Origin: Loigolactobacillus jiayinensis
GTDB taxonomy: Bacteria > Bacillota > Bacilli > Lactobacillales > Lactobacillaceae
Length of the DNA: 51,059 nt
Direction of reading: 5' to 3'
Assembly (NCBI RefSeq): GCF_003946445.1
Contig: NZ_RHOF01000029.1
Coordinates: 1-51,059, forward strand
In this document: positions 4,947 through 48,681 of the stretch, piece after piece
How the letters are laid out: each line of letters opens with the position of its first letter
Position numbering within the stretch: position 1 is the stretch's first letter
Notes under the pieces: model-generated
Seen by the model: only the letters and a program-made list of their open reading frames with translations
The model's database searches: none
Told to the model about the DNA's origin: nothing
Made by a program: the position numbers and the translations under genes

Positions 4947-5082
4947 CCCATATCCTTCTTTCTATTGTTTTACCGTAGTACTGGTCGGTCCTCCCTTCGA
5001 TACACAAACCTTGAGCGACAATCTGAAAATAGTATACTAGAAAAGCAGTGGGAAAGACAGCTCTTTTACGTTCCTTGTTGAG

Positions 5083-10290: not shown

Positions 10291-10301
10291 AAGCAGTATT
10301 A

Positions 10302-10328
10302 TATGATTATGTATGATTTCATATGATT
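10302..10328 (+). repeat. Three helically phased TATGATT repeats in the attL arm
   Basis: TATGATT occurs at 10302-10308, 10312-10318 and 10322-10328, a period of exactly 10 bp, with an inverted copy AATCATA at 10367-10373. Same-face phasing beside an attachment site suggests binding by excisionase or integrase. This is inference from spacing. Confidence 0.45.
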
Positions 10329-10332
10329 TGAG

Positions 10333-10361
10333 AACGCCTATAAATAGGCGTTTTTATTTTT
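10333..10361 (+). terminator. Terminator after pepV, supplied by the phage arm
   Basis: Stem AACGCCTA (10333-10340) with its complement (10345-10352) and then TTTTTATTTTT. It ends pepV transcription but lies on the phage side of the inferred core, so pepV gained this terminator on integration. The same stem sequence recurs at 16370-16390. Confidence 0.75.
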
Positions 10362-10396
10362 AATAAAATCATATAAATGCACCTAAAATTGTGCTG

Positions 10397-10446
10397 TGAC
10401 GTAACTTTGACGTAACTTTTAGGCCTATTTTTCAAAAGTTACGTCA
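10397..10446 (+). repeat. Integrase arm-type sites, left arm
   Basis: The 11-mer TGACGTAACTT occurs in tandem at 10397-10407 and 10408-10418 and inverted at 10436-10446; a shortened copy lies at 10514-10523. The same 11-mer is found at 50971-50981 beside the other phage end. Repeats shared by both sides of attP and away from the core are the usual layout of arm-type sites bound by the N-terminal domain of tyrosine integrases. A 16-bp version is identical at both ends. Confidence 0.55.
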
Positions 10447-10498
10447 CCAAAAAGTGTTGATTTACCGGTTCTTTTGGAACAATTAATTTAATTAAATT

Positions 10499-10542
10499 AA
10501 ATCACTCCTACTTTGCGTAACTTAAATATAAAGGAGTGATTT
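10499..10542 (+). promoter_or_regulatory. Hairpin that hides a ribosome binding site
   Basis: AAATCACTCCT (10499-10509) is the exact complement of AGGAGTGATTT (10532-10542), with a 22-nt loop. The right arm contains the AAGGAGTGAT ribosome site of the 55-aa ORF at 10548, so the folded mRNA would block its translation. Confidence 0.55.
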
Positions 10543-10547
10543 TTATT

Positions 10548-10715
10548 ATGCAAATTTATATCAATGATGGCATCTGGCGGCAAGTGATCAATTGCACGGT
10601 GATCATAGCTGTTGTCAGTAGTACTGGCTCACTGCTTGCCTATATATCCGGACAAGCAATCGGCCAAGCGTGCGGCAATGCGATAATAAAACAGCACTCC
10701 GGCCATTATGGCTAG
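10548..10715 (+). CDS. Small hydrophobic protein (55 aa), attL-proximal
   Basis: Not recognised. A 55-residue peptide with a hydrophobic stretch at about residues 13-35 (VINCTVIIAVVSS to LLAYI) followed by a small-residue, Gly/Ala-rich segment and a His-rich end; one membrane helix is likely. A near-perfect AAGGAGTGAT ribosome site precedes the ATG by 8 nt but lies in the arm of a perfect hairpin. A terminator overlaps the stop. It is the only plus-strand gene at this phage end and faces the accessory cassette. Toxin-like or membrane-stress roles are possible but unproven. Confidence 0.5.
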   Translation: MQIYINDGIWRQVINCTVIIAVVSSTGSLLAYISGQAIGQACGNAIIKQHSGHYG

Positions 10716-10726
10716 GGTGCTTTTTT
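10693..10726 (+). terminator. Terminator of the 55-aa gene
   Basis: A 12-bp stem with two G-U pairs and one mismatch (10693-10704 with 10710-10721) followed by TTTTTT. It overlaps the stop codon of the preceding ORF and sits between convergent genes. Confidence 0.65.
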
Positions 10727-10744
10727 GCTATTGAAATTCATCTT

Positions 10745-11173
10745 TTAGTCTTCACTGATATAATTTTTATAAAGTGTGATCAATTGGATAATATCGCTAG
10801 TCGTCATATCGTTCAGTAAGTCAAATGTATCGCCCATTTCGGGGTCATTTTCTTCAACTTGATCCGCGGCTGCTGTCAGTTTGCCGGTAAATGCTTTAAT
10901 AAATTGGGCAAATTCCGTTTGTTGATCACCAATATTTTGCTGAATCCAATCAGCTTCGTAAGCTCGTGCCAACTTTGTGACCGTTTCCCACTTTGCTTTT
11001 TCTAAATTAGTGCTGCCATTGCGATACTGCGTAAGACTCATACGGTTGATGCCAGTTGTGTTATTAATAAAAGTTATAGTGACAGCCTCATTTGCCAAAA
11101 TAGCTTTTGCTTTATCCATATCATTGCCCAGCTCGTCGCGCCATGGGTGGTTAAATGCCGTTTCATGTGTCAT
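10745..11173 (-). CDS. Putative HTH DNA-binding protein of the accessory cassette
   Basis: A 142-aa protein with a probable N-terminal helix-turn-helix: about residues 28-70 read as TITFINNTTGINRMSLTQYRNG followed by a helix, as in short Cro/XRE-like domains. The acidic C-terminal half looks alpha-helical. It overlaps the RNase H-like gene by one base (TAATG), and is last in the operon driven from 11967-11994. As the only candidate DNA-binding protein here, it may control the two cassette promoters that share operator repeats. An alternative start is the ATG at 11119. Function is inferred. Confidence 0.6.
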   Translation of the reverse strand: MTHETAFNHPWRDELGNDMDKAKAILANEAVTITFINNTTGINRMSLTQYRNGSTNLEKAKWETVTKLARAYEADWIQQNIGDQQTEFAQFIKAFTGKLTAAADQVEENDPEMGDTFDLLNDMTTSDIIQLITLYKNYISED

Positions 11174-11637
11174 TAGTGTTTACTCCTTTTTCCGTACAAA
11201 AATTTATATAATTTATTATGGATTTTCGTATTTAATCCGATATGTCCTCGTGTTTTAACGACTTCAACATTTTGAATTCGATCTAACTGCCGCTTTAGTT
11301 TTTTAATATTAGCAACGGTTCGCTCAAAATTTTCCTTTGCCCACTGATTATCTGGCATTTTTTCATTTCCACCGCCATCTAATCCATGAGCAAAGTTTAC
11401 AGCTTGGATTGAATCTGTGTATACGATCACTTTTATTTTAGTGGTTGGCACTGCCTCTAGTGCTTTAGCTATTGCTTTTATTTCAAAAAAAATCGGATCT
11501 TTCTGTCTACCTGATTCACGGCGTAACTCGCACTTGCTGTAAAAACCCTCATCATCATTTATCATATAAGCCCAGCCACCAGTTTGGGCGGTTGGGCTGT
11601 ATGATCCATCTGTATATATTTTGATTATATTTGTCAT
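11173..11637 (-). CDS. RNase H-like protein
   Basis: A 154-aa RNase HI-fold protein. Three acidic residues expected in the active site are visible: D in IYTDGS (about residue 9), E in FFEIKAI (about 52) and D in VYTDS (about 74). The fourth, usually Asp in a GH-N-x-D-x-L motif, appears to be Asn or His (RGHIGLNTKIHNKL), so activity may be altered. RNase HI cleaves RNA in RNA-DNA hybrids. Lies between an unknown 98-aa gene and the HTH gene with 1-nt overlaps on both sides, so translation is coupled. Confidence 0.82.
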   Translation of the reverse strand: MTNIIKIYTDGSYSPTAQTGGWAYMINDDEGFYSKCELRRESGRQKDPIFFEIKAIAKALEAVPTTKIKVIVYTDSIQAVNFAHGLDGGGNEKMPDNQWAKENFERTVANIKKLKRQLDRIQNVEVVKTRGHIGLNTKIHNKLYKFLYGKRSKH

Positions 11638-11933
11638 TACTCTGTAGCCAGTATTGCCCCAGCGTCACCCTTTAATGCAACATAGGCTGTAGAAAATAAT
11701 CCTTGTGCGGCCTCGGATTTTGCTGGATCACTTAGCTGAAATTTATCAAATTCAGAATGTAGCTTTACAAAACGAGTCAAAACCGATTCGGTTTCCACAC
11801 GTGTTAAATGGTTATAGCCGATTGCGTTAGCAGCCTTTTTTACTAATACAGCTTCATTTTCAATTGATTTTTCCATTTCGGTAACTACCTCAATAACTGC
11901 TTTTTGATTTACTTTTTGATTATTTCTCATCAT
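11637..11933 (-). CDS. Hypothetical accessory protein (98 aa)
   Basis: Not recognised. A 98-residue, mostly helical, soluble protein with a basic N-terminus (NNQKVNQK) and an Ala-rich C-terminus. AAGGGGAAAC ribosome site before ATG-ATG. It is first gene of the operon starting at the 11967-11994 promoter and overlaps the next gene by one base. Position between lysin and attL marks it as an accessory (moron) gene rather than a structural one. Confidence 0.65.
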   Translation of the reverse strand: MMRNNQKVNQKAVIEVVTEMEKSIENEAVLVKKAANAIGYNHLTRVETESVLTRFVKLHSEFDKFQLSDPAKSEAAQGLFSTAYVALKGDAGAILATE

Positions 11934-11966
11934 GTTTCCCCTTTTCTTTATCTTTTCTATACTCTT

Positions 11967-12009
11967 AGTATATACCTTTTACATTATTTGTAAATACTTT
12001 TTACACGTT
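11967..12009 (-). promoter_or_regulatory. Cassette promoter B with paired operator repeats
   Basis: Minus strand: -35 TTTACA (11989-11994), 16-nt spacer, -10 TATACT (11967-11972). Two copies of a degenerate ATACtatTTACAtaat element start at 11972 and 11994, 22 bp apart, covering the -10 and the -35. The same element, spacing and promoter layout occur at 12777-12819. Confidence 0.6.
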
Positions 12010-12236
12010 TATTTTAATTTATCCCATGCTATAAAACCCAATGGCTTCAATTCATAGTCACTGATCTGCTTTTGACTTAGCGGCTGCTTGTAGCCGACCG
12101 CTCCGTAACCTTTACGGCCGAAATTTAAATCATTATCTGCAGCACTGCTGGGTTGACACCCTGGCGACACACCACGAAATTGCAGTGCATACCAGTAAAG
12201 CTTACCGAAAATATCGTGAAATTGTTTTTCTGTCAT
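12009..12236 (-). CDS. Hypothetical accessory protein (75 aa)
   Basis: Not recognised. A small protein rich in aromatic and Gly residues, with the segments KLYWYALQFRGVSPG and GRKGYGAVGYKQPL and a C-terminal LKPLGFIAWDKL. GAGG ribosome site 8 nt before ATG; 14 nt after the 158-aa gene, so the two form one transcription unit from promoter A. Similar-sized unknown proteins are common in lactobacillus phages; role unknown. Confidence 0.65.
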   Translation of the reverse strand: MTEKQFHDIFGKLYWYALQFRGVSPGCQPSSAADNDLNFGRKGYGAVGYKQPLSQKQISDYELKPLGFIAWDKLK

Positions 12237-12250
12237 GATTAAGCCTCATT

Positions 12251-12727
12251 TTAGTAGAATAAGCGTAACTTGCTAAAGCCAAAGCTGACAACAATCTTAC
12301 CCTTGTTGCCTTTGCGTGCAGAAGCTGGGCGGAAAAGCTTTTCGTCGTTTACTGCATTAATTTTGTCAACTAATACTTGTGCTTTTTCAGCTGTTGGGAA
12401 ATCTTTTGAGATGATCATAGTGCATTTCATGTTACGAGTCCAAGTACTGATTTTCTTTTCGCTACGGAAGAACATTGGAACAACGGTTTCGATGATTTGG
12501 TTTTGCAATTCTGAACGATCAAGTGTTAAAGCAGTGTCTTCATTGAAATCTTTTGAATCACGGATAACTTTACGATAGCCATTTAAGCCAGTCATTTTAT
12601 TTTCTCCTTTGTTTGTGTAAGTGATTTTTAAGCTACAAGCAAAGAAGTCTTTTGATGAACCGCCGAAACGTTTTGCACCTTGTTTTGCTAATACCCATGC
12701 TGCTGTAAAGATTTCTGCGTTTGTCAT
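12251..12727 (-). CDS. Hypothetical accessory protein with AW-LAK-LK N-terminal motif (158 aa)
   Basis: The N-terminal about 37 residues (IFTAAWVLAK, GGSSKDFFACSLK) resemble a short helical motif that I have seen at the start of many small proteins of phages and plasmids, some of them anti-defence proteins. The rest (about 45-158) is mixed alpha/beta and basic at the end (ASARKGNKGK). AAGGGGTC ribosome site, first gene under promoter A. Anti-defence activity is a hypothesis based on location and this motif only. Confidence 0.65.
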   Translation of the reverse strand: MTNAEIFTAAWVLAKQGAKRFGGSSKDFFACSLKITYTNKGENKMTGLNGYRKVIRDSKDFNEDTALTLDRSELQNQIIETVVPMFFRSEKKISTWTRNMKCTMIISKDFPTAEKAQVLVDKINAVNDEKLFRPASARKGNKGKIVVSFGFSKLRLFY

Positions 12728-12776
12728 TTTTAAGACCCCTTTGTTTGTTTTTGATTACCTTTAACTCTATGTCTTT

Positions 12777-12819
12777 AGTATATACTATTTACATAATATG
12801 TCAATACTATTTACATAAT
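12777..12819 (-). promoter_or_regulatory. Cassette promoter A with paired operator repeats
   Basis: Minus strand: perfect -35 TTGACA (12799-12804), 16-nt spacer, -10 TATACT (12777-12782). Two identical 16-bp repeats ATACTATTTACATAAT lie at 12782-12797 and 12804-12819, 22 bp apart (two helical turns), one over the spacer and one just upstream of the -35. This suggests cooperative binding by a repressor, shared with promoter B. Confidence 0.65.
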
Positions 12820-12852
12820 TAATTTAAAATAATTGTTTTTATTTTTGGCCAA

Positions 12853-12884
12853 CAAAAAAAGACCTACCCCGCAAGGGATAGGCT
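12853..12884 (-). terminator. Late-operon terminator after the endolysin
   Basis: Stem of about 8 bp (CCTATCCC against GGGGTAGG; 12863-12870 and 12875-12882) with a TTGC loop, followed on the minus strand by seven T. It lies just after the endolysin stop and separates the late operon from cassette promoter A. Confidence 0.8.
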
Positions 12885-12912
12885 AATTTGTTGTTGAATC
12901 GATAGTATTTAA

Positions 12913-14379
12913 TTAATATTTGAGTGTCTGACCCGTATAGATCAAGTTTGTGTTGCCAATGTTATTTTTAGCCGCTAACGATGCTACCGTGGTGCCTAGA
13001 TTAGCGGCAATCGTACTTAAGTTGTCACCATATTTTACGGTGTAACTCCGACTAGTAGCAGTCGCACCACCACTAAATTTAAGTTGTTGACCGACTTGGA
13101 TAAAGTTATAGTTGGTGATCCCGTTATAAGCGGCAAGCGTGGCTGTGGTTAAGCCGTGTGCTACGGCGATTGCTGATAAGGTATCACCACTTTGTACGGT
13201 ATAGTAACTAATACCGCTAGCTGCTGCAGCATTACCTTTAATTGTCAGCTTTTGTCCAATATAAATATAATTAGTGTTGCTAATACCATTTAGGCTAGCT
13301 AAGGCGGATACGCTAGTACCATACTTTGCCGCAATACCACTGAGCGTGTCACCAGATTGCACAGTATAGGTTGAGCCACCAGCAGTAGTTGTACCGGTAA
13401 CAGATAGGATTTCGGCGTTGCTGCGATCAAGCCAGCTGTTAATGCCGGATAACAGTAGCTTAGTGCCACTAACCTCAGCCACCGTATAGTTTTGCCCCTT
13501 TACCCAGCTTGGAATGTTTTCGCCGGTCGCCCACTTACTAGCGCTAAAGTTAACCTTGACCGTGTCGCCGACCTTAATGGCTGACTTAGGCGTGTTATTA
13601 GCAGCTTGACCTGCGGCAATCGCTGGCGTAGTCGTGGCTGGTTTAACCTTGGTACCGCCAACTGAACTGGTCGTGGTGCCGTTATAGCCGTTGTCTGTGA
13701 TACCTAAATAGTCCTTATTACCATCTAAACCACCAGCAATGTAAGTAGACGTAAACTGAGCAATCGCCATACCATCGATCACAGGCAATGCTTCGGTGTC
13801 CTCAGCTGACCGCACCTGATAATCAGGATAGCGAGCAACCCAGAGCGAATTAGGGAACGCCTGTAGAACTTGCTCATAATTAATGTTAGCTTTAATAAAG
13901 GAATCACCACTATACAAGATAGGCGTGAAGCCAGCAGCCTTGATACGTCCCATGGCATAAATGATCGCACTAGTTGACGGCGTCCCAGATTCGACGTCTA
14001 AAGCCACAATAGAACTTTTTGGCATTTGGACTTTAGGCAGATAATAATTAAGCATCTGATCGGCTTCGGCGTTATTTGCAAACTGCGCATAAATATAAGT
14101 ATGCGCCCTTTTACCCTGAGCAATCGCATATTGAACTTGTGTCGCGTAGGTGGACTGATCAGAAAAGTAACCATTATAATAGCCGCCCACTTGGGCAATG
14201 GCGAACTTATCTTTGGCGTAACCAAATACGCCGGTATTACCCTGATATTTAGACCAATCGACACCGTAATCACCTTTAGCAGCTTGTGCTGGTGCTGTAC
14301 TCAAAGCTACTGGCGCCAACAAAAAAACAGCCGCGGCGGCGACTGTTAAACGGGTTGCTAATTTAGTTTTATTTTGCAC
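12913..14379 (-). CDS. lys: Endolysin: GH25 muramidase with signal peptide, SH3-like and three LysM domains
   Basis: It cleaves peptidoglycan glycan chains at lysis. From the GTG start: Sec signal peptide of about 33 residues ending AQA/AKG; GH25 domain (about 37-235) with DWSKYQG, the DVE catalytic pair near residue 128 and AQFTS; an SH3-like segment (about 270-345); and three LysM repeats ([30 protein letters not shown]) in the last about 150 residues. GTG at 14377-14379 follows GGGAG at suitable spacing; the longer TTG frame has no ribosome site. The signal peptide implies export independent of holin pores. Confidence 0.93.
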
Positions 14380-14623
14380 TCTGATCGTCTCCCGTGGGTT
14401 TGTTTGTATCAATCAAAATCCCAGCTGCTGTCTGATCTGCTGATACCTGTGCGGCCTTGTAGGCTGTAATTGCATCGGATACCTGAGTAACCTGAGCTTG
14501 GGTAATCAGTGATTTCACTAAATAATTGCCAGCGTATACTGTAGCTAACTCCGGCTGGATCAATCCGTTGTTAACACTGCTAATTAATCCTTCTGTTAAA
14601 AATTCGCTTAAATTAAAACTCAT
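14369..14623 (-). CDS. Small protein of the lysis module (84 aa)
   Basis: Family not recognised. It has no membrane helix but ends [15 protein letters not shown], nearly the same as the holin C-terminus AAGILTDTNKPAGDD. The shared part is also conserved in DNA (14384-14428 against 15800-15844, 39 of 45 identical), so the tail was copied between the genes. It overlaps the receptor-binding gene upstream by 4 nt and the endolysin downstream by about 11 nt. It may be a lysis regulator or antiholin-like partner; unproven. Confidence 0.65.
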
Positions 14624-33111: not shown

Positions 33112-35008
33112 CATCACCACCGCCTTCATCTAGTAACCCAGAATCTGGATTTTTAAACCAGTCCAGTACTTCTTGATCGCTCATTCGTTCGACTTGTTTC
33201 GCTGGGTTATTAACGTCAGCAAAATCTTCAAAATGGTACATTCCCTGATAAAGTGCATCAATCAAGGCATCAACCACATCAATTTTTAGAGTTGCCGCTG
33301 CTTTGTCAACTTGAATTCCGATCTTGTCTTCATAGATTTGCGCATTGATTAAGGCCTTTTCCATAATTCGATCGTCTAACCGACTGATTGAGCTTTCGAC
33401 AAAAGCCGATTGCAAAAACTTTGTCGGGTCTTTCAGCTCGCTGGTGCGTTGCCGAATATCTTCGATTGGCCATTGCACATTCAATTCAAGTTGTTTAGTC
33501 ACATTGGTTGCACCCCACGAATCATAGCCAAAAAATAAAACGTCCAAGCTGTGATCATCAACAAAATTTAATAGCCACTGATAAACTTGATCATCATTGA
33601 TTAATCCTTGTGGGTGACTAGTAATCGTGCAAAATCCTTTAGCCGCTAGCTCCCGATAATTAATGCCATCTTGTTTTTCCTTAGCATCAATTGAGCCTGC
33701 CTTTTGCCACGGAATAAAAGAGTGCTGTCGTAAATGCCACATTCGCTTGCCTGTGATCGGATCATTATATGGAAAAGCGAACCCGATCGCAGTATTGTCG
33801 GAAAACATGGAGTAATCGTAACCGATATAAACTTGACGGTTTTCAATTTCAAAGTCTGGCACAATAGCCCGCTCAATATCAGCAAGTTTTAAGTATGAGT
33901 TTGTAGCTTCTTGTAGCCAGAGATTTAAATTTTTGTTCTGAAAGTCATTAAGCTCGCCGGTCATACTATCGCTATCTCGTTTGCCAGTTAAGCCTGCAAG
34001 CAATTGACTAGACTTATTTTTCAGTCCTAGTAGCGGATTAGATTTTATCCAAGTTTCCGGTTTATAGGTTTCGTCAAGCGAATCTTGACACCAGATCAAG
34101 CACAAATAATCGTCAGCTTTGCGGTCAAAATCCTGTTCCATGGTTTGCTGCATCATTTTTTCGTCATCATGAAACGGCACCGACGGGTCTGGATAAGCAG
34201 TGGATATCTGGATAAATTGATGATTCTCTACATCGACTTGGCCAGAGATAATCTTAGATATTTTCTGCCGTGTTTTCAGTTCACCAATTTCGTCAAAGAC
34301 AGCCGTTTTAAAATGGAAACTATCATACTGACCAGATTCATGGCTGATTGCTCGCAAAACATTATTGACCTTAGTCATAATAATCTGGTCGCTTTGCGAG
34401 CTCAGCAATTTAGAATTTAATCCGTTTTGTACCGCATATGATTTAAACGGTTCGATATCTAAAATCTTGCGTAGCATTGATTTAACGTAGCCCAGTAGTT
34501 TACTAGTCTGTTTAAAATTGATTGAAGCCACCAAGTAATCTTGGTTAGAAAGCCCCATTGATTCGATCAAAAAACTATAAACGGTAACGATCGCCATTAA
34601 ATAAGTTTTACCTTGTGCACGGGCAACCGAAACGATAGCACGGGCAAAACGCTTGCCGCCTAAATTATTGCGCCAACCAAATAATTGAGCTAACACAAAA
34701 TTTTCCCATGGCATTAATTTACTTGGCTTTCCAGTATCAACGTCGGGACAAATCTTAGCGAACTTCAAAATCTTATTCGCATCAGGAACACTATAGGAAT
34801 ACGGAAAGTCTGGACTACCTTGCCGCTGTAAATCACGTAAGTGGCGAAAAGCTGCTAGCTTAATAAAATAGCCGGTAACCACTTTTTCGTCTAAAACATC
34901 AAAGGCATATTTGGTTCCAATATCCTGATATTGTTCACGAGTTGTAGAAAAATCAATTGCCTGATAAGCGCCCAGCACATCACGTGTTTGGGTTAGGTCA
35001 ATTTTCAT
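33101..35008 (-). CDS. terL: Terminase large subunit
   Basis: The packaging ATPase/nuclease. The ATPase domain has the Walker A-type loop VARAQGKT (about residue 128) and Walker B TAVFDEIGE (about residue 245); the C-terminal nuclease domain begins with the Asp in IGYDYSMF (about residue 394) and has a later DVVDALIDA. Start ATG at 35006-35008 after GGAG. It pumps DNA through the portal and cuts concatemers. It overlaps terS by 11 nt. Confidence 0.95.
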   Translation of the reverse strand: MKIDLTQTRDVLGAYQAIDFSTTREQYQDIGTKYAFDVLDEKVVTGYFIKLAAFRHLRDLQRQGSPDFPYSYSVPDANKILKFAKICPDVDTGKPSKLMPWENFVLAQLFGWRNNLGGKRFARAIVSVARAQGKTYLMAIVTVYSFLIESMGLSNQDYLVASINFKQTSKLLGYVKSMLRKILDIEPFKSYAVQNGLNSKLLSSQSDQIIMTKVNNVLRAISHESGQYDSFHFKTAVFDEIGELKTRQKISKIISGQVDVENHQFIQISTAYPDPSVPFHDDEKMMQQTMEQDFDRKADDYLCLIWCQDSLDETYKPETWIKSNPLLGLKNKSSQLLAGLTGKRDSDSMTGELNDFQNKNLNLWLQEATNSYLKLADIERAIVPDFEIENRQVYIGYDYSMFSDNTAIGFAFPYNDPITGKRMWHLRQHSFIPWQKAGSIDAKEKQDGINYRELAAKGFCTITSHPQGLINDDQVYQWLLNFVDDHSLDVLFFGYDSWGATNVTKQLELNVQWPIEDIRQRTSELKDPTKFLQSAFVESSISRLDDRIMEKALINAQIYEDKIGIQVDKAAATLKIDVVDALIDALYQGMYHFEDFADVNNPAKQVERMSDQEVLDWFKNPDSGLLDEGGGDDDW

Positions 35009-36431: not shown

Positions 36432-36507
36432 ATAAGTTAGTTTAAAGCTTGCGATTGAACTGAATTTTTTTTAGATTTTGGTTAACGACATCCTTAAACT
36501 AACTTAT
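36432..36507. repeat. 14-bp inverted repeat upstream of the late operon
   Basis: ATAAGTTAGTTTAA (36432-36445) and its exact complement (36494-36507) flank 48 bases. It lies just before the junction terminator in the minus direction. It could be a regulator site or, in RNA, a long stem that changes terminator folding. I see no clear sigma-A promoter here. Confidence 0.45.
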
Positions 36508-47973: not shown

Positions 47974-48681
47974 TTGACGAAAAAAATTGGTGAGAATATT
48001 AAGCAATTAAGAATCATGAATGGCTGGAGTCAACCTCAATTGGCCGACAAACTCAATGTGACAAAACAGACTGTTTCTAACTGGGAAACTGGTTATCGTG
48101 AGCCTAAAATGGGAGCTATTCAAAAACTGTCTGAGCTTTACGGAGTAAGCATGTCAGCAGTAATTGATGGTCTTTCAGAAGGTACTTATAACGTTGATTT
48201 TTCTGAAAAAGAATCAAAAGGTAAATATATCCCAGAAGCAAGCTCTAGTCATACATACCCTTTTATTCCAGCTGGTGTCGCGGCAGGATCTCTGGCAGAA
48301 GTCGAACCATACTTAATTAATGACATTCAGAAAATTAAAATTCCAGATGTCATGATGTCGAACTATGCTGGTGACAAAAATGTTATTGCTATGACAATCA
48401 ATGGTGAATCAATGAATGAAACAATCCCAAATGGTTCAGTTATTTTGGTTAAAAGATTTGATAGCATCGATGATTTAAGAAACGGTGATATTGTAGTTTT
48501 TTCTCTTGATGGTGTTGATTATTCAGTAAAACGATTTGTTAATGATGATAAAGCTCACATTTACTCTTTTTTACCGGATTCAATAGATAAGAGTTTTATG
48601 CCAATTAACTTTCGCTATGAGGACGCTGAAAATAGACTAATTGTTATTGGAAAAGTAGTATCTTATACAGTTACGATATAA
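47974..48681 (+). CDS. cI: CI-like repressor with S24 peptidase domain
   Basis: A 235-aa lysogeny repressor. N-terminal XRE HTH (about 5-60; IKQLRIMNGWSQPQLADKLN, TKQTVSNWETG) and C-terminal LexA/S24 domain with the Ser in NGESMNETIPNG (about residue 148) and the Lys in YSVKRF (about 187). The likely self-cleavage site is an Ala-Gly in PAGVAAGSL (about 97-105). TTG start after AGGGAAGTGAT. RecA-triggered cleavage allows induction. Confidence 0.92.
   Translation: MTKKIGENIKQLRIMNGWSQPQLADKLNVTKQTVSNWETGYREPKMGAIQKLSELYGVSMSAVIDGLSEGTYNVDFSEKESKGKYIPEASSSHTYPFIPAGVAAGSLAEVEPYLINDIQKIKIPDVMMSNYAGDKNVIAMTINGESMNETIPNGSVILVKRFDSIDDLRNGDIVVFSLDGVDYSVKRFVNDDKAHIYSFLPDSIDKSFMPINFRYEDAENRLIVIGKVVSYTVTI

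Follow-up and report, generated by a model that had tools for sequence, protein, structure and literature searches.

Among the described anti-CRISPR loci (acr; CRISPR, clustered regularly interspaced short palindromic repeats), those of the acrIIA1 type in Listeria have small genes that adjoin the lysin gene, together with a helix-turn-helix (HTH) protein. In Streptococcus phage Sfi21 (NC_000872) the acrIIA5 locus runs from the endolysin through genes for 110 and 74 amino acids (aa), AcrIIA5 (as annotated) and a 140-aa protein to attP and the integrase; the 140-aa protein is taken to be Orf140b by its name and length, and an inverted repeat can be seen by eye over the -35 element. AcrIIA15 joins an HTH to a C-terminal domain (CTD) that mimics double-stranded DNA, and of the inverted repeats in its promoter, IR1 precedes the -35 and IR2 falls between that element and the -10 (available portion of PMC10901769). 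Here we describe a five-gene cassette beside the lysin gene of a prophage in Loigolactobacillus jiayinensis. The window, that is, the whole stretch of DNA analysed, is contig C50 (51,059 bases), one of the 127 contigs that make up a draft genome of 3.04 Mb. We give a probability of roughly 0.62 to the cassette being an anti-defence locus of the acr-aca type (aca, anti-CRISPR-associated) that a temperate phage carries directly after its lysin gene.

This reading is the best explanation because the host array targets its own prophages, the last gene encodes an HTH with the fold of the AcrIIA15 N-terminal domain (NTD) and Aca11, operators lie at the promoters, the layout follows that of Sfi21 and one product is a DarA_C domain. 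The fold match, the Sfi21 parallel, DarA_C and the self-targeting array, to which the exchange of cargo at related loci is added, also support the original prediction, which had proposed a candidate acr-aca-like anti-defence locus. Since the layout is acr-like and the cell is alive with a CRISPR array that targets its prophage, the cassette probably helps to switch off host defences. The five genes that had been named (158, 75 and 98 aa, RNase H-like and HTH) were all confirmed on the minus strand:

12913 to 14412, minus strand: lysin gene of the prophage
12862 to 12883, minus strand: terminator-like hairpin in the gap between lysin and cassette, with a 9-pair stem then a T run (consensus match only)
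12251 to 12727, minus strand: 158-aa gene (isoelectric point 9.9), with a Phage_Gp111-type motif at residues 6 to 41 and a C-terminal part
12009 to 12236, minus strand: 75-aa gene, a free-standing DarA_C domain
11637 to 11933, minus strand: 98-aa gene, to which two L. backii prophages have relatives at 68-69% identity; contains a self-protospacer
11173 to 11637, minus strand: 154-aa RNase H-like gene (PF00075 at 47.9 bits, cut-off 25.8; phrog_531)
10745 to 11173, minus strand: 142-aa Aca-like HTH gene, with an N-terminal HTH at about 17 to 78 and an acidic helical C-terminal half

The order on the minus strand is lysin, hairpin and cassette; the hairpin, which comes after the lysin stop, agrees with the late terminator that had been placed ahead of the cassette. 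The frames of the 98-, 154- and 142-aa genes overlap by 1 base at each junction, and the small genes adjoin that of a DNA-binding protein in one orientation, as in acr-aca loci. Proteins identical to those of 158, 75 and 98 aa are present in one IMG/VR contig. Searches with the cassette DNA gave no hit among phage or plasmid records, and the one match to L. backii DNA is restricted to the HTH gene. None of the five proteins had a match in PADLOC, and profile and sequence searches revealed no likeness to known Acr proteins among the cargo genes. For attL, no shared core of at least 9 bp was found; the contig stops 40 bp past the integrase gene.

The cassette had been said to possess its own promoters with a shared operator, and this was confirmed:

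12777 to 12815, minus strand: promoter P1, -35 TTGACA (12804-12799), -10 TATACT (12782-12777), spacer of 16, 11/12 consensus positions; operators O1 (12799-12815) and O2 (12777-12793)
11967 to 12005, minus strand: promoter P2, -35 TTTACA (11994-11989), -10 TATACT (11972-11967), spacer of 16, 10/12 consensus positions; operators O1 (11989-12005) and O2 (11967-11983)

P1 lies upstream of the 158- and 75-aa genes and P2 upstream of the 98-aa, RNase H-like and HTH genes. They are the top two of the promoter-like matches in 10300-13000, a region with no overall excess of such matches (11 found against 9.3 expected). Each promoter has two copies of a 17-bp near-palindrome, 22 bp apart, the upstream copy covering the -35 and the downstream copy the -10. 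With up to 2 mismatches, the operator pattern TGTAAAWAGTATNKACA gave 6 matches at 4 sites in the 51 kb, none of them outside P1 and P2, against 0.25 expected and with 6 reached in 0 of 100 shuffles, figures that are optimistic because the pattern was chosen after the promoters had been inspected. Predicted operators are thus found at the promoters of the locus, as in acr-aca loci. By eye, similar operator-like sequences can be seen in L060 and L061, two L. backii loci whose five genes stand in the order of the window cassette; across 123 loci the exact pattern occurred nowhere but in copies of the window locus.

The HTH protein which ends the cassette had been compared with Aca regulators, and structure prediction with fold search bore this out, the solved structures nearest to its HTH domain being AcrIIA15-NTD and Aca11; the list is what Foldseek ranked, and families missing from it are not thereby excluded. 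The C-terminal half is acidic, with a low predicted local distance difference test score (pLDDT) and no fold match of its own. It has a charge of -10.2 in the window protein and of between -6.2 and -7.2 in another five close relatives, and is nearly neutral in remote ones (-2.1 and -3.1). Among 397 genomes of the family, 18 contain HTH matches at E ≤ 0.001, and relatives of at least 50% identity occupy five places in four genomes. Eight close loci were opened, including three L. backii viral contigs, L060 and L061 being from one common host genome; from the fetched HTH-relative regions five of seven were opened (L049 to L053, leaving out L054 and L055). All eight close loci directly follow a lysin, and the cargo around the conserved HTH gene varies among five arrangements:

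five-gene type: window, L060, L061
114/71 aa: L003 and L063, the latter with 144 aa in addition
133 aa: L049
121 and 111 aa: L050
217 and 156 aa: L051

More than two distinct types of putative cargo therefore accompany one HTH gene, the mark of acr-aca loci given in the consulted part of PMC8934645, which counts types of Acr. The same layout (lysozyme, 119 aa, HTH and integrase) recurs around a remote relative of 26% identity on pHL70_2, a plasmid of L. gasseri; two further remote relatives differ, L052 having no lysin in view and L053 lying in a conjugative element. Right after the HTH gene in L. rennini, at the same post-lysin site, we observed type IV CRISPR effector genes (L049:6592-9300 and L050:2013-4718, on C45 and C47 of G006), assigned by PADLOC in L049 (Cas8/Csf1 E 1e-34, Cas11 4e-11, Cas7 4e-51, Cas5 2e-43) and, as a similar set, by open reading frame (ORF) reading in L050.

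Regarding the cargo, the N-terminus of the 158-aa protein scores 25.5 bits against Phage_Gp111 (PF07410), just under the cut-off of 27.1 and over the N-terminal 36 residues only, and two relatives from related loci exceed that cut-off (31.1 and 40.2 bits). Sequence searches found no relatives of its C-terminal part: candidate matches in seven marine viral contigs (L070 to L076) were rejected as chance, a short stretch being shared with a long unrelated protein, as was one in G031 that sits in a helicase/nuclease-like frame. Codon 45 (12595) of this gene is an ATG in frame and is preceded by AAGGAG, a strong Shine-Dalgarno sequence, which would permit a product of 114 aa. The N-terminus of Gp111 type may serve as a leader, separable or fused, for C-terminal parts that change. 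The 75-aa protein consists of a DarA_C domain (PF18789, 46 bits, cut-off 27; phrog_1926) and aligns with P1 DarA at 36.7% over 53 residues (E 8e-3). DarA_C was found in 2 of the 397 family genomes, the other copy being at G118 C1:2972668-2972826 within an open frame of 2161 aa that probably encodes a polyvalent protein. The 98-aa protein had no match in phages or plasmids and, among the 397 genomes, occurs in its own genome only; in viral contigs a pattern search gave the identical copy only, and ORF reading of L060 and L061 revealed the relatives. Its AlphaFold2 model (pLDDT 46.6) is too weak for a fold search.

On contig C33 the host carries an array of 97 spacers, a 1121-aa cas9 frame and two frames that resemble cas1 and cas2, these two being identified from their position and look and not by a profile. 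As no csn2 was seen between cas2 and the array, the system is assigned to type II-C. A tracrRNA-like region (tracrRNA, trans-activating CRISPR RNA) on C108 is 91% identical to that of genome G003, and cas9 and tracrRNA appear intact by sequence. The self-sites in the window are as follows, each with the tetramer on the side of the protospacer adjacent motif (PAM):

11822 to 11851, plus strand: self-protospacer in the 98-aa gene, 30/30, ATAG
36465 to 36494, minus strand: self-protospacer, 29/30 with the mismatch at the PAM-distal end, TTAG
48567 to 48596, minus strand: self-protospacer in the CI-like repressor gene (47974-48681), 30/30, TTGG

A fourth window site, at 33908, has 3 mismatches to an own spacer, the most that was allowed. 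The second prophage, on C46, has own-spacer sites of 29/29, 30/30 and 30/30 and one with 2 mismatches. With up to 2 mismatches there are 7 self-sites, against 0 for reversed spacers and 0 in each of 5 shuffles. The flank consensus TTAG occupies positions -8 to -5 in 8, 9, 7 and 9 of 11 flank-spacer pairs, a consensus that is partly circular in that the pairs are mostly these self-sites; in the orientation of the CRISPR RNA (crRNA) a TTAG-flanked target reads NNNNCTAA. In L. coryniformis, sequenced II-C crRNAs have a 17-nt spacer part (accessible text of PMC6070500). Sites exact over the PAM-side 17 nt number 5 in the window (2 TTAG, 2 TTGG, 1 ATAG) and 3 in C46 (all TTAG). Exact self-spacers, a putatively functional PAM and a CRISPR-Cas system that appears intact come together in C46, with three exact TTAG sites and cas9 and tracrRNA present.

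In other genomes, G001 (L. backii; 64 spacers) has two exact self-sites, one with the consensus-like AAAT and one with AAAA, and two more with one mismatch each, broken in the PAM-side 17 nt; G003 (325 spacers) has one exact self-site with the off-consensus tetramer ACAT. The idea that only cassette-bearing prophages are self-targeted is weakened by G003, whose prophage stretch C6:1-75000 is without an HTH cassette. An exact self-spacer in L. rennini lacks NGG and is therefore explained by PAM escape. L098:1-12000 was read for genes, whereas the remainder of L098 and L099, L100 and L108 were covered by the spacer scan only. As side observations, G003 spacers match the 75-aa gene (12060-12089) and the 158-aa gene (12505-12534) with 4 mismatches each, and 3 of 12 L. 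rennini spacers match cassette genes (L050:4911-4940, 4995-5024). Four II-C Cas9 proteins (G000, our host, C33; G003 C28; G007 C79; G001 C72) are 87-91% identical, most divergent in the C-terminal quarter, and seem to use different PAMs, with flanks TTAG, TTGG, AAAC and AAAY respectively. A BrxC gene (1216.6 bits; L021:16253-19873, on C33) adjoins the CRISPR locus, the host having at least part of a bacteriophage exclusion (BREX) system. After its lysin, C46 (L095 to L097) holds a 167-aa Gp111-type gene that shares 83% identity with its L. backii counterpart, a 232-aa HTH-like gene and a 67-aa frame; the 232-aa protein gave no useful PDB match (one hit, E 0.61) and an HTH_26 match below cut-off.

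In the mechanism that we propose, the 142-aa protein would repress P1 and P2 through binding to all four copies of the operator, which would allow a burst of cargo on infection and a low level in the lysogen. The DarA_C protein would most likely counter defence of the restriction type. The type II-C Cas9 would most likely be blocked by one or more of the 158/114-aa product, the 98-aa product and the HTH protein's acidic C-terminal half, a block through which the cell could live with spacers against its own prophages.

Self-targeting has guided others to Acr genes (PMC6990116, as far as the text was available), and two points qualify our interpretation of it. The exact self-sites of the window prophage have ATAG or TTGG and its TTAG site matches at 29/30, so that it does not strictly show this mark of an Acr; furthermore, self-targeting is reported in 3.6% of intact Lactobacillus prophages (in the part of PMC8269257 consulted). 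These off-consensus PAMs at two of three window sites would also fit a cassette that acts against restriction or BREX only, CRISPR tolerance coming from the second prophage, another inhibitor or a silent or weakened CRISPR system. DarA_C points to restriction (partial text of PMC5512222), the BrxC gene is next to the CRISPR locus, and C46 has both its exact TTAG sites and a post-lysin cassette of its own; however, acr loci have this layout and this type of HTH, site 36465 combines TTAG with a full match over the PAM-side 29 nt, and cas9 and tracrRNA appear intact, which leaves this explanation doubtful.

The HTH protein could itself be the inhibitor, a fusion built like AcrIIA15: its N-terminal HTH would repress the locus, its acidic C-terminal half would take up the PAM/DNA site of the II-C Cas9, and the other genes would serve other defences. 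It is the sole cassette gene common to the window prophage and the self-targeted G001 prophage, its C-terminal half is conserved as well as acidic, and AcrIIA15 offers the precedent; yet that half has low pLDDT and no fold match, is nearly neutral in remote relatives, and Sfi21 has a separate Acr beside its HTH protein, and we regard this as unlikely. Equally unlikely, in our view, is the wider proposal that the 142-aa family is a new bifunctional HTH-anti-CRISPR class of AcrIIA15-like design, with a new C-terminal domain silencing the Loigolactobacillus II-C Cas9, and that the site it governs is a weapon exchange point (DarA_C and Gp111-type genes here, type IV CRISPR effectors in L. rennini). 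A moron cluster of the ordinary accessory kind, which would serve DNA metabolism or superinfection exclusion and be unrelated to host defence, would suit the RNase H, a routine phage enzyme, and the 158- and 98-aa proteins without known function. Against it stand the DarA_C domain, the Aca-like HTH fold, the AcrIIA5 parallel and the spacers against cassette genes; we hold it to be very unlikely.

If the acr-aca-type reading is true, the cassette is a compact source of inhibitors for a small (1121-aa) type II-C Cas9 of a food bacterium, and it accounts for cells with arrays of about 100 spacers retaining prophages which those arrays target. The Gp111-cargo-HTH layout of streptococcal acrIIA5 loci would then mark anti-defence loci in Lactobacillaceae too and could therefore be used to find more of them. 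A titles-level search of the open-licence literature found no description of an anti-CRISPR from Loigolactobacillus.

Compared with known systems, the 75-aa protein is free-standing and without a DarA_N part, whereas P1 DarA is a 639-aa head-internal protein with DarA_N; the latter is tied to antirestriction, its residues 383-639, where DarA_C is located, not being resolved (PMC12810830, seen in part). AcrIIA15 and Aca11 share 17-18% identity with the 142-aa protein over the HTH, and the AcrIIA15 CTD is not matched by its C-terminal half. A candidate locus of the same plan was observed in another genus (L086; G220 C33), with a lysin, a Gp111-type 121-aa protein, an acidic 85-aa protein, a 156-aa HTH protein and an HNH/CapR-like protein; the top PDB hits of this HTH protein are 5y69 and 5y6a (E 0.045), which we take to be AcrIIA1. 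The window HTH protein, in contrast to that Listeria type, matched AcrIIA15/Aca11 and not 5y69/5y6a. From Sfi21, AcrIIA5 (at E 0.5) and the 74-aa protein have no match among the window cassette proteins; the place of AcrIIA5 is occupied in the window by the 98-aa and RNase H-like genes, one promoter is seen in Sfi21 against two here, and the host Cas9 is of type II-C, unlike the Sfi21 system. Both loci nevertheless share the series of lysin, Gp111-family protein, protein of about 75 aa, cargo and HTH protein. In a 21-protein set, the Sfi21 110-aa protein is 34% identical to the 158-aa N-terminus over 38 aa (E 2.4e-6) and the 140-aa protein is 30% identical to the window HTH protein over 50 aa (E 6e-8), the latter also scoring 28.8 bits against the HTH family profile compared with 8.7 for the best of 200 shuffles.
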